Of a stretch of DNA of 64,000 bases, positions 6,607 to 33,307 are shown one piece after another. The notes beneath the pieces are model-generated. The model was not told the DNA's origin and ran no database searches. It saw only the letters and a list, made by a program, of their open reading frames with translations. Origin of the DNA: Variovorax sp. CF079 (GTDB lineage Bacteria; Pseudomonadota; Gammaproteobacteria; Burkholderiales; Burkholderiaceae_C); contig NZ_FMZU01000020.1 of NCBI RefSeq assembly GCF_900101545.1, positions 1 through 64,000 on the forward strand, read 5' to 3'. Numbering within the stretch: position 1 is the stretch's first letter; every line of letters starts with the position of its first letter. The translations under genes and the position numbers were made by a program.

Positions 6607-6966
6607 TCAAGCAGCCAGCTTGGCCTTGACCTGCTCCACGATGCCGGCAAAAGCGGCCTTGTCGTGCACGGCGATATCGGCCAGGACCTTGCGGTCGATC
6701 TCGATACCGGCCTTGCGGATGCCGTTGGCGAACTGGCTGTAGGTCAGGCCCAGTTCGCGCGAAGCGGCATTGATACGGGCAATCCACAGTTGGCGGAACA
6801 CGCGCTTCTTGGTGCGGCGATCACGGTAGGCGTATTGGCCTGCCTTCATCACCGCCTGCTTGGCGATGCGGAAGACATTGCCGCGGCGACCGCGGAAACC
6901 CTTGGCGAGTGCGAGAACCTTCTTGTGGCGGGCGCGAGCCGTTACACCACGTTTGACGCGAGGCAT
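6607..6966 (-). CDS. rplT: 50S ribosomal protein L20
   Basis: 119 aa, full length bL20, an early-assembly 23S rRNA-binding protein. Basic N-terminus ([18 protein letters not shown]) and conserved [18 protein letters not shown] and YSQFANGI segments are present. It follows rpmI by 24 nt. In enterobacteria L20 represses rpmI-rplT translation by binding the leader mRNA; a candidate hairpin for such control lies in the infC-rpmI gap. Confidence 0.97.
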
Positions 6967-6990
6967 GTGTGTACTCCTTGTTCGTCTGGA

Positions 6991-7194
6991 TTAAATGCCG
7001 CTGCCGGGCAACATGGCGGCCATCGAAACCATGTTGGTCTCGTGCACTGCCGTTGCACCACGCAGGTGACGCTTGTTCTTGGTGGTCTTCTTGGTCAGGA
7101 TGTGACGCTTGAAGGCTTGACCGCGCTTGACGGTGCCACCGGGACGAACGCGGAAACGCTTTTTCGCGCTGCTCTTGGTCTTCATTTTGGGCAT
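6991..7194 (-). CDS. rpmI: 50S ribosomal protein L35
   Basis: 67 aa, normal bL35. The start [16 protein letters not shown] and the [15 protein letters not shown] stretch are typical. A strong AAAGGAG ribosome binding site precedes the ATG. It sits between infC and rplT in the usual order. Confidence 0.97.
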
Positions 7195-7274
7195 GTGAAT
7201 GCTCCTTTAGTTTGTGCTCGTGAGGCGCCGCGGATATTCCACGGGCTTGTTGGCCCCGAGACACTTCTTTATCC

Positions 7275-7341: not shown

Positions 7342-7944
7342 TCAGGCCGCGGCGGGTGCGGTTGTCGACTCAGCCGCCGGTTTTGCCGCGCCACCCGCCT
7401 TCTTGCGGCCCGGCGCGATCATCATGATCATCTGCCGGCCCTCGAGCTTCGGAAACTGCTCGACCACGATCGCGTCGCCGAGATCCTCACGAATGCGCTG
7501 CAACAGCGCCAGACCGAGTTCCTGGTGCGTGATCTCGCGCCCCCGGAAGCGCAGCGTGATCTTGCACTTGTCGCCCTCGTCAAGAAAACGCCGGATGTTG
7601 CGCATCTTGATGTTGTAGTCGCCTTCGTCGGTACCCGGCCGGAACTTGATTTCCTTGACCTCGATGACCTTCTGCTTCGATTTCGCTTCGGCAGCCTTCT
7701 TCTGCTCGTGGTACTTGAACTTGCCGTACTCGATCAGGCGGCAGACCGGCGGATTGGCCGCCGCGACGACTTCCACCAGATCCACGTCTTGCTCACCAGC
7801 CAGGCGCAATGCCTCGGCAAGACTCACGACACCCAATTGCTCGTTATCGGGCCCGATCAGGCGGACTTCCGGGGCCATGATTTCCCGGTTCAGGCGGTGT
7901 TGGCGTTCCTCGCGGTGGCGGCGGTCGCGAAATGCAGTAGCGAT
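7342..7944 (-). CDS. infC: Translation initiation factor IF-3, ATC start
   Basis: 200 aa. IF-3 binds the 30S subunit and checks start codon choice. The N-domain ([20 protein letters not shown]), basic linker ([16 protein letters not shown]) and C-domain ([19 protein letters not shown]) are all present. The first ATG (7878) would remove the conserved N-terminal segment; the frame extends upstream through [17 protein letters not shown] to an ATC codon at 7942-7944, with AAGGA 8 nt ahead of it. The rare start codon is the family's hallmark, since IF-3 discriminates against such codons and so limits its own synthesis. A short A/P-rich C-terminal tail is extra. Confidence 0.93.
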
Positions 7945-8052
7945 GGTCAGAATCCTTCAATCAATCTGCTACAAAAATTGTAGCGAACGCCGTAGAGTCC
8001 ACGCCCACAAGCAGCCTGATTGCTCAAAATCAGCCTTTGAACCGGTTCAAAT

Positions 8053-9960
8053 TCAAAGCTTGTGTTGGATGTCGGCGGCGATCTTTTGGGAGAACGCCTC
8101 CACCGACATGGCACCGAGATCAAGATTGCCCCGGGCGCGCACTGCGACGGCACCTGCTTCCTTCTCCTTGTCGCCCACGACGAGGATGTAGGGAAGCTTT
8201 TGCAACGAATGCTTCCGTATTTTATACGTAATCTTCTCGTTGTGCAGATCGAGCAAAACTCTAAGCCCTTGATTTTGCAGCGATTTCGCAACTTGAGATG
8301 CGTAATCCGCCTGTCCTTCGCTGATATTGAGCACCGCGACCTGCACCGGCGCCAGCCAAGCGGGCAGTGCGCCGGCGTGATGTTCGATCAACATGCCGAT
8401 GAATCGCTCGAGGCTGCCGACGATCGCGCGGTGCAGCATGACCGGATGTGCGCGGCCGCTGGACTCGGTGACGTACTCTGCGTCCAGGCGCTCGGCCATG
8501 TTGAAGTCCACCTGCATCGTGCCGCACTGCCACTGGCGGCCGATGGCGTCTCGCAGCGTGTATTCGATCTTCGGCCCGTAGAAGGCGCCTTCGCCGGGCG
8601 AGATGACGAATTCCACACCCGATCGGCGCAGTGCCTCCATCAGCGCATGCTCGGCCTTGTCCCAGAGTTCGTCGGCGCCGATGCGGTTATCGGGCCGTGT
8701 TGCCACCTTGTAGAGGATCTCGGTGAAGCCGAAATCGGCATAGACCTTGAGCAATTGCCCCGTGTAGGCCACGCATTCCTCGAGGATCTGGTCTTCGGTG
8801 CAGAAGATGTGGCCGTCGTCCTGCGTGAATCCGCGCACCCGCATGATCCCGTGCAAGCCGCCCGAGGGCTCGTTGCGGTGGCACTGGCCGAATTCGCCGT
8901 AGCGCAACGGCAGGTCGCGGTAGCTGCGCAGATCGGACTTGAAGATCAGCACATGGCCCGGGCAGTTCATCGGCTTGAGTGCGTAGTCGCGCTTTTCCGA
9001 CTCCGTCGTGAACATGTTTTCGCGGTAGTTCTGCCAGTGGCCCGTTTTTTCCCACAGGCTCTTGTCGAGGATCTGCGGGCCTTTGACTTCCTGGTAGCCC
9101 GTGTCGCGGTAAACACGGCGCATGTACTGCTCGACCTGCTGCCAGATCGCCCAGCCCTTGGGATGCCAGAACACCACGCCGGGCGCCACCTCGTCGATGT
9201 GGAACAGATCGAGCTCCTTGCCCAGCCGGCGATGGTCGCGCTTCTCGGCCTCCTCGATGCGCTGGACGTACTGGTCCAACTGCTTCTTGTCGGCCCAGGC
9301 CGTGCCGTAGATGCGCTGCAGCTGCTCGTTCTTCGCATCACCGCGCCAGTAGGCGCCGGCCAGCTTCGTGAGCTTGAAGACCTTGAGGAAGCGAGTGTTC
9401 GGCACGTGCGGGCCGCGGCACATGTCGACGTACTCCTGGTGGTAGTACAGGCCCATCGCCTTTTCGTCGGGCATGTCTTCCACCAGCCGCAGCTTGTAGT
9501 CCTCGCCGCGGGACTTGAACACCTCGATGACCTCGTCGCGCGGCGTCATCTTCTTGACCACGTCGTAGTCCCGCGCGATCAGCTCGCGCATGCGCGCCTC
9601 GATCGCCTCCATGTCCTCGGGCGTGAAAGGGCGCTCGTAGGCGATGTCGTAGTAGAAGCCCTCCTCGATCACCGGACCGATCACCATCTTCGCCGTCGGG
9701 TAGAGCTGCTTCACTGCATGGCCGACCAGGTGGGCCGTCGAGTGGCGGATGATCTCCAGGCCCTCGTCGTCCTTGGGCGTGATGATCTGCAGCTTCGCGT
9801 CATGCTCGATCAGGTCGCTGGCATCGACCAGCTGGCCGTCGACCTTGCCGGCCACGGTCATTTTCGCGAGGCCGGGGCCGATGGACTTGGCAACGTCGGC
9901 CACCGAAACCGGGCCGGGAAACTCGCGGCGCGAGTTGTCGGGGAGAGTGATCTGGATCAT
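8053..9960 (-). CDS. thrS: Threonyl-tRNA synthetase
   Basis: 635 aa, normal length. Domains: TGS (1-61), the editing/second additional domain (about 170-220), class II catalytic core (about 245-530, with MNCPGH, and [15 protein letters not shown]), and the C-terminal anticodon-binding domain (about 540-635). The ATG at 9960 (MIQITLPD) is chosen over an upstream in-frame ATG because it matches the family start and has GAGG 10 nt upstream. A terminator-like hairpin lies just 20-50 nt before this start, so expression probably depends on readthrough. Confidence 0.97.
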
Positions 9961-9980
9961 GGGAAGAAAACCTCGGCGAG

Positions 9981-10012
9981 AAAACAAAAAAGCGCGGTCT
10001 GGGACCGCGCTT
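9981..10012 (-). terminator. Intrinsic terminator in the thrS leader (candidate attenuator)
   Basis: On the minus strand AGCGCGGTC (10003-10011) pairs with GACCGCGCT (9991-9999), 3-nt loop, followed by TTTTTTGTTTT. It ends about 20 nt before the thrS ATG, too close for a separate thrS promoter downstream of it. An upstream TCCGCGC (10046-10052), right after the leader-peptide stop, could pair with the GCGCGG arm as an antiterminator; a small hairpin (10028-10043) lies between. Confidence 0.75.
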
Positions 10013-10052
10013 GGCTGTGGTTTGAGTGCTGGATGCTTCCAGCGTGCGCGGA

Positions 10053-10115
10053 CTACCGGCCTCTTCCTTCAAGGAAAAGACCGCTCATTGCTTGCGGTGT
10101 AGTTCGCGGTGTCAT
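10053..10115 (-). CDS. Candidate thrS leader peptide
   Basis: A 20-codon frame beginning ATG ACA CCG CGA ACT ACA encodes MTPRTTPQ..., with three threonines in the first six residues, and stops at TAG (10053-10055). AAAGG lies about 10 nt upstream. It sits between a possible -10 (TAGAAT, 10164-10169) and the terminator before thrS. A ribosome stalled on the threonine codons would leave TCCGCGC free to disrupt the terminator; one that reaches the stop would cover it. Predicted only; no homolog evidence is available here. Confidence 0.4.
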
Positions 10116-10181
10116 AACCAGGGTGCCTTTCTCGCTCTTGTTGCTGCTGAGACGGAGCTGCCGATTCTATCCGCAGCCCGC

Positions 10182-10493
10182 TCAGGACGCGGGCGCTGCA
10201 TTCTTGAGACCCAGCACCTCGATCGGCTCGATGGCCGGCGGTTTGGCGAACAGCTCTGGCGCCTTGGCCATCAAGGCCTGGGCGATCGGGCCGTTCAGAT
10301 GCGCCTGGCGACCGGCCTCGTCCTCGAACGCGTCGAAGACACCGAAGGTGGTGGGCGAAATGCGCAGGGCGAACCAAATCGGCGTGGTCTTCTCGTCGCG
10401 CGCCATGGAAAGCCCCGCTTCGAGAAACTGCTGGACCTCGGCTTCCTTGCCCGGCTTGGCTTCGAGGCGGGCGAACAATGCGAACTTGATCAT
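10182..10493 (-). CDS. Antibiotic biosynthesis monooxygenase (ABM) fold protein
   Basis: 103 aa. The pattern MIKFALFARLEAKPGKEAEV, FLEAG and FGVFDAFEDEAGRQAHLNG is that of small dimeric ferredoxin-like ABM-domain proteins, often quinol or aromatic monooxygenases or stress proteins. Substrate cannot be inferred. GGAG lies 6 nt before the ATG. It is divergent from the GlxA-type regulator, which may control it. Confidence 0.8.
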   Translation of the reverse strand: MIKFALFARLEAKPGKEAEVQQFLEAGLSMARDEKTTPIWFALRISPTTFGVFDAFEDEAGRQAHLNGPIAQALMAKAPELFAKPPAIEPIEVLGLKNAAPAS

Positions 10494-32917: not shown

Positions 32918-33063
32918 TAGGCAGTGCGAACGTAAAACGCAACCATTTCATTGCATTTCCAGCGAAAGCCCCGCGCCACGCGAGGTCTGCCGCACGCGCG
33001 ACAACCGGCTCGCCGCCCGGCTCCTAGAATCGCCGGGCCGCCGCACGAAAGCGCAGCGGCAAA

Positions 33064-33216
33064 GCGTTCTCAGGGCGGGGTGGAATTCCCCACCGGCGGT
33101 GATGGCGACACGTTCGCACGAGCCCGCGAGCGCCTGCGGCGTGCAATGCGCCGCAGGGTCAGCAGACCTGGTGAGATCCCGGGGCCGACGGTCACAGTCC
33201 GGATGAAAGAGAGCGC
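33064..33216 (+). ncRNA. FMN riboswitch (RFN element)
   Basis: All hallmark pieces are present in order: CAGGGCGGGGTGGAATTCCC, CACCGGCGGT, GAGCCCGCGAGCG, GGTCAGCAGACCTGGTGAGA and CCGGGGCCGACGGTCACAG, ending GGATGAAAGAGAGCG. P1 closes with GCGTTCTC against GAGAGCGC. A TAGAAT -10 box lies at 33025-33030. Between the aptamer and ribH is a GC-rich hairpin (GGCAGGCGCG, TTCG, CGCGCGTGCC with one mismatch) that may form the expression platform. FMN binding should shut off ribH. Confidence 0.95.
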
Positions 33217-33307
33217 GATCCCGTTGCCGGGCAGGCGCGTTCGCGCGCGTGCCGGGCCTCGGGTTCGTGCGCCCTGATTCAGGAAACCCTTCTTCAAAAG
33301 GCAAACC

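Follow-up and report, generated by a model that had tools for sequence, protein, structure and literature searches.

The thrS operon of Variovorax sp. CF079 is very likely controlled by a classical ribosome-mediated transcription attenuator that senses charged tRNA-Thr, a reading drawn from the sequence of the locus and of its relatives. In the window, i.e. the whole stretch of 64,000 nucleotides that was analysed, the elements of this candidate lie directly upstream of thrS (Table 1): a putative short leader ORF with its ribosome-binding site, Thr codons near the start of the ORF, a site at its stop codon able to pair with the 5' arm of a hairpin, and this hairpin itself, an intrinsic terminator between leader and gene. 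The gene order behind the leader is thrS, infC, rpmI and rplT, identified with Pfam, then a PheS-like frame named by eye.

Organization of the thrS leader and predicted mechanism

Table 1. Elements of the thrS leader and genes behind it, in window coordinates
Feature	Position	Strand	Remarks
-10-like promoter box TAGAAT	10164..10169	-	read from sequence; TANAAT recurs in relatives
5' block with ribosome-binding site, ACAAGAGCGAGAAAGGCACCCTGGTT	10116..10141	-	among the most conserved stretches (query 28-72; alignment A1)
Leader peptide ORF, 20 codons + stop TAG, N-terminus MTPRTT	10053..10115	-	N-terminus kept in relatives
Control codon 5, Thr ACT	10101..10103	-	codon counts in 129 leaders
Strand 1, CGCGAACTAC, pairing with strand 2 possible	10099..10108	-	helix 77.6% paired (67 leaders); pairing not a general trait of the groups
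Strand 2, GTAGTCCGCGC, overlaps leader stop	10046..10056	-	antiterminator arm is its CCGCGC, 10051-10046
TCCGCGC, directly 3' of leader TAG	10052-10046	-	
Strand 3, terminator 5' arm AAGCGCGGTC	10003..10012	-	antiterminator partner of strand 2
Strand 4, terminator 3' arm GACCGCGCTT + U-rich tail	9980..9999	-	helix counted in alignment A1
Terminator stem	10012-10003 / 9999-9990	-	10 pairs; U-rich tail to about 9980
thrS, threonyl-tRNA synthetase, ATG at 9960	8053..9960	-	Pfam TGS, tRNA_SAD, tRNA-synt_2b, HGTP_anticodon
infC (IF-3), next gene	7345..7956	-	Pfam IF3_N, IF3_C; true start inside stop-to-stop frame
rpmI (L35), stop-to-stop frame	6994..7206	-	Pfam
rplT (L20), stop-to-stop frame	6610..6990	-	Pfam

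From these elements we infer the following course of events. The RNA would start near 10157, and a ribosome would begin the MTPRTT leader. When charged tRNA-Thr is scarce, this ribosome would stall at the early Thr codons (mainly codon 5, also 2 and 6) and cover strand 1. This would leave strand 2, which lies at the leader stop, available for pairing with strand 3; the terminator would not form, and thrS and the genes behind it would be transcribed. When Thr-tRNA is plentiful, the ribosome would reach the stop and cover strand 2, and the 3:4 terminator would form. Without any translation of the leader, strand 2 could be sequestered by strand 1 (in the window's family group), and the terminator would form in this case too. 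A small hairpin, GCTGGAAGCATCCAGC, lies between strand 2 and the terminator (window 10028-10043, minus strand); a similar one was seen by eye in the nearest relatives.

Signals in the window compared with chance

The window alone would not establish attenuation; it is the conservation in relatives that exceeds chance. The 211-nt leader folds better than 200 of 200 shuffles (z -4.1). Terminator-like sites show no excess: 4 are found in 4.2 kb versus 3.5 in shuffles. With a dinucleotide-shuffled spacer, the pairings of the window reach p 0.040 for strands 1:2 and p 0.149 for strands 2:3. The same kind of shuffle, applied leader by leader to 69 leaders, gives p <=0.05 in 23% of them for 1:2 and in 29% for 2:3; a Fisher combination of these single-leader values was not retained, the sequences being related and hence not independent. 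A consensus scan listed no promoter at the -10 box of Table 1. The leader of the window has no Rfam match at gathering score; as for the T-box, none was found at gathering score in the window and none in 9930-10200 up to E 10. Trp_leader gave a weak match to the leader (E 0.44, well below gathering score). Another weak match, ncS025 (E 0.98), was dropped, being absent from Burkholderiaceae-type leaders. Elsewhere in the window, at 33062-33218 on the plus strand, an FMN riboswitch was found with 107 bits.

An initial annotation of this DNA had already proposed attenuation logic before thrS, to be checked by aligning the leaders of relatives for Thr codons and pairing. That proposal held up: Thr codons, stop, antiterminator site and terminator are kept together in ten families, with three of 15 groups failing the swap test described below, and the alignment finds both Thr codons and pairing kept (Thr at codon 5 in 128 of 129 leaders; 2:3 pairing favoured in 12 of the 15 groups). 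The strong terminator that it placed shortly before thrS is indeed there. Two of its details are correct in part. The 20-codon frame exists, but "threonine-rich" overstates its 3 Thr in 20 codons (codons 2, 5 and 6; the share of Thr among the residues of 29 long window ORFs is 5%). The TCCGCGC at the stop, described as able to pair with the terminator arm, is present and its site at the stop recurs in relatives, but the pairing in the window itself does not stand out from shuffles, as seen above.

Leader peptide and control codon

Leader peptides were compared in 129 distinct leaders. L111, L113 and L118 were excluded as duplicates, and L010, L068, L079 and L096 stand outside this set, no terminator having been called in them. 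Five uncertain leaders (L043, L069, L088, L099 and L184, the last counted although it lacks an ATG) are included in the peptide counts and were left out of the folding model, the swap test and the stop-position test. Leader length ranges from 9 to 23 residues, with a median of 13, and the total of Thr per leader from 1 to 7. Residue 5 is Thr in 128 of the 129 leaders (codons ACT 115, ACG 13; the remaining one has ATT), a count which is partly built in, since the core by which the leaders were collected spans codon 5 and also positions 1 and 2 of codon 6. The lone exception, L069, also lacks an ATG. Residues 2 to 4 belong to the same search core and vary more than residue 5: changes affect residue 2 in 12 leaders, residue 3 in 6, residue 4 in 10 (to Pro or Leu) and residue 5 in 1. 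Residue 2 is Thr in 117 leaders and residue 6 in 87. Residues 2, 4 and 6 are variable, and outside the window's family group Thr5 is present in 53 leaders out of 53. The control codon, coding for the amino acid that the product of thrS loads, is nearly invariant.

Free of the collection bias is the count of Thr from codon 7 on: 141 of 1005 codons in frame (14.0%) versus 13 of 876 (1.5%) and 27 of 876 (3.1%) in the other frames. This count replaced an earlier one from codon 6 (20.1%), as that codon lies partly within the search anchor.

Throughout ten families the core ATGACACCGCGAAC[TG] is almost unchanged in its letters, a degree of conservation beyond what Thr coding or the 1:2 hairpin needs. 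It is possible, if rather unlikely, that this core is the sensor itself, either because one Thr codon, all but obligatory, is read amid an unvarying set of rare codons (ACA, CGA, ACT), or through a nascent MTPRT chain or a ThrRS contact that would sharpen stalling. In the long ORFs of the window ACT makes up 2.4% and ACA 4.4% of Thr codons, and CGA 5.8% of Arg codons. If the core were the sensor, one codon would do the work of the codon runs found in other attenuators.

There is a small chance that the leader works as an attenuator responding to something other than Thr-tRNA, for instance translation being slowed generally at the rare CGA-ACT pair, or the nascent MTPRT chain causing arrest. 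Codons 3 and 4 are nearly as conserved as codon 5 (CCG in 123 and CGA in 115 of 129 leaders), and the 1:2 pairing, which could explain their conservation, is not kept across groups. What speaks for Thr-tRNA as the signal is that residues 3 and 4 tolerate the changes listed above whereas residue 5 does so in a single leader, that further Thr codons accumulate behind the core, and that the controlled gene is thrS.

Terminator and antiterminator pairings

A terminator was called in 71 of the 75 leaders scanned; none passed the scan in the other 4. In alignment A1 the terminator helix is paired at 94.2%, and both sides have changed in 5 of its 9 pairs. The 2:3 helix is paired at 94.0%, 2 of its 6 pairs being changed on both sides, and its letters, as seen by eye, differ in distant groups: TCGAGG/CCTCGA in some Burkholderiaceae-type leaders, TAGTCG/CGGCTA in the Undibacterium type. 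In 106 of 124 leaders (69.2 expected from base-shuffled spacers) the site that pairs best with strand 3 has its centre at most 14 nt from the leader stop, i.e. where a terminating ribosome would sit. When partners were swapped, the 2:3 duplex energy proved better for the own partners in 12 of 15 groups (Wilcoxon test, one-sided, p 0.009; p 0.005 with a wider strand 2), groups f32, f35 and f51 failing the test. Stop position and swap test thus point to an antiterminator exclusive with the terminator, a signal that is weaker in single-sequence shuffles and in the folding model. The 1:2 helix (77.6% paired in A1, 67 leaders) favours own partners in 9 of 15 groups (p 0.18): this pairing holds well within the window's family group but is not general.

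In the folding model, the mean upstream pairing of strand 3 is 0.81 with a ribosome at Thr5, 0.62 with a ribosome at the stop, 0.49 without ribosome and 0.68 for shuffled spacers. The terminator dominates at equilibrium for both ribosome positions (0.86 and 0.94); therefore the switch would have to be kinetic. The model is mildly supportive of attenuation, a weak signal.

The chance is very small that ThrRS binds the leader RNA itself, in the style of the E. coli thrS operator, with the leader ORF mattering little. The 5' block and the first codons are highly conserved in nucleotides, and ThrRS autoregulation exists in E. coli; it is named in passing in PMC2965389, where the passages concerned mention threonyl-tRNA synthetase in this connection only. 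Against such binding, the leaders are less structured than base shuffles from o-22 to o+16 (mean z +0.72, 60 of 124 leaders), and with this lack of structure the 5' block shows no anticodon-arm-like hairpin. Moreover, the exchange of ACT for ACG at codon 5 and the in-frame enrichment in Thr point to translation of the leader, and an intrinsic terminator stands between leader and gene.

Distribution of the leader in relatives

Leader DNA matches were found in 116 of 150 genomes of the family, most of them covering the 5' block and the first codons. The leader anchor score was reached at 44 of 80 thrS loci fetched by protein and at all 30 loci fetched by leader DNA, window included (74 of 110 combined). 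We built a covariance model, R1, from 67 leaders. In 399 genomes of the order it gave 61 places with at least 33.5 bits, of which 59 have thrS directly downstream (tblastn); the remaining two show no thrS within the fetched 1.2 kb. The strong matches before thrS span 10 of the 51 families sampled (f1, f3, f8, f10, f23, f32, f35, f39, f44 and f47). Below about 33 bits R1 also catches terminators elsewhere, and for this reason leaders cannot be counted from the tallies of 62 of 369 and 118 of 399 genomes. Such weaker matches sometimes have thrS downstream (L181, L183, L184, L187); the seven class matches fetched outside the order (L141-L147) are all without thrS. The core TTATGACACCGCGAACK occurs in 45 of 399 genomes of the order, once in each, and a control pattern in none; in the class-wide set it was found in 3 of 340 genomes, all from the window's own family. 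Among the carriers are Variovorax, Acidovorax, Roseateles and Undibacterium, together with Pandoraea, placed by hand. The family groups used here (e.g. f8b, f23a) are our own splits by leader type: the remaining loci fetched by leader DNA or by protein were put in f1, L085 was placed by hand, and L084, L085 and L110 were grouped by name or by eye.

In 54 of 70 leaders a TANAAT box precedes the leader start by 20-90 nt (2.2 expected from base shuffles), the median distance being 50 nt. In the Burkholderiaceae-type loci L084, L085, L135, L153, L167 and L169, Rfam places a tRNA gene near the thrS leader, and the leader may therefore be read from the neighbouring tRNA promoter there.

The initial annotation held that attenuation would be contradicted if the hairpin were conserved without the leader frame and its pairing. 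Such loci exist: in 12 of the 80 thrS loci a hairpin of the CGCGG type is kept and the leader is absent (L046, L049, L054, L063, L064, L071, L078, L082, L086, L090, L095 and L097; the hairpin of L054 was recognized by eye). Named genera in the leaderless set are Limnohabitans, Serpentinimonas, Rhodoferax, Malikia and Hylemonella, and in 8 of the 12 loci a TANAAT box precedes the hairpin by a few tens of nt. Since leader and hairpin are found jointly in ten families, we read these loci as probable cases of leader loss in some lineages. That the hairpin simply ends transcription of the upstream gene, the ORF beside it having arisen by chance, is scarcely credible: a same-strand upstream ORF does end at 10182 (no Pfam match) and leaderless hairpins do precede thrS in some relatives, but a -10-like box recurrent in relatives separates this ORF from the hairpin, and leader, terminator and thrS stay together while the sequence further upstream differs among relatives, as judged by eye.

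Relation to known systems

Several modes of control are known for synthetase genes of this kind. In E. coli, thrS has a translational operator, a tRNA-like RNA bound by ThrRS, which is not known to have a leader ORF or terminator; autogenous control of thrS is what it would share with the attenuator described here. T-box RNAs sense tRNA charging by binding the tRNA directly, and are not known to use a leader peptide. The E. coli pheM-pheST system is a leader-peptide attenuation of a synthetase operon within the same translation gene neighbourhood; its control codons are Phe codons, and its place differs from that of the attenuator described here, which stands before thrS with the PheS-like frame a long way downstream. 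A survey by Lopatovskaya in 2010 reportedly covers attenuators at amino acid and aminoacyl-tRNA operons.

The initial annotation had taken thrS control to be known only as T-box or operator, which is too narrow: a threonine-dependent leader peptide (thrL) before thrS of Streptomyces lividans, without U-rich terminator, is listed in PMC8079986, so that Thr leader control of thrS is not unheard of. The two systems have in common a short ORF with Thr codons before thrS; the Streptomyces one differs by MKRVRPFLETTPGFVPAR, a leaderless transcript, a single hairpin and no U-rich tract, as well as by another peptide and another phylum. A thrS leader attenuator is thus of a kind already known, a Thr leader before thrS having been reported in Streptomyces. 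Attenuators before trpS and leuS in Streptomyces and before pheST in gamma-proteobacteria are given in a passage of PMC1262725; those of trpS and leuS resemble ours in being of the classical type before synthetase genes and differ in amino acid and phylum. In Bacillota, as stated in the relevant passage of PMC12452182, thrS-infC-rpmI-rplT runs are under T-box control: the run is the same, but the window leader has no T-box match. In B. cenocepacia, 82 short 5'UTRs are reported in PMC5688073, two tRNA-synthetase genes being given by locus tag; "thrS" and "threonyl" are absent from its main text. In the accessible text of PMC4603805 no passage contains the terms sought. Among the matches listed, no paper on a thrS leader peptide in Betaproteobacteria was recognized by title or abstract, which is not a claim of absence from print.

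If the proposed attenuator is real, it would add a further way of sensing Thr-tRNA at thrS, wide in the host's order, beside the E. coli operator and the T-box. It would head a run with IF-3, two ribosomal proteins and a PheS-like gene, and therefore threonine shortage could alter more than one enzyme. Its short leader, near-invariant control codon and hairpin-only relatives would open the gain and loss of attenuation to direct test.

Another conserved leader was seen at seven Xanthomonadaceae-type thrS loci (L039, L042, L044, L045, L047, L048, L053). It ends in GCGTGCGAC (GTGTGCGAC in L053), followed by an ATG and short peptides, e.g. MSTTIAHR, MDTTRSQR and METTRIPR, several of them with a hairpin and a T-run behind; this is perhaps an independent Thr leader.
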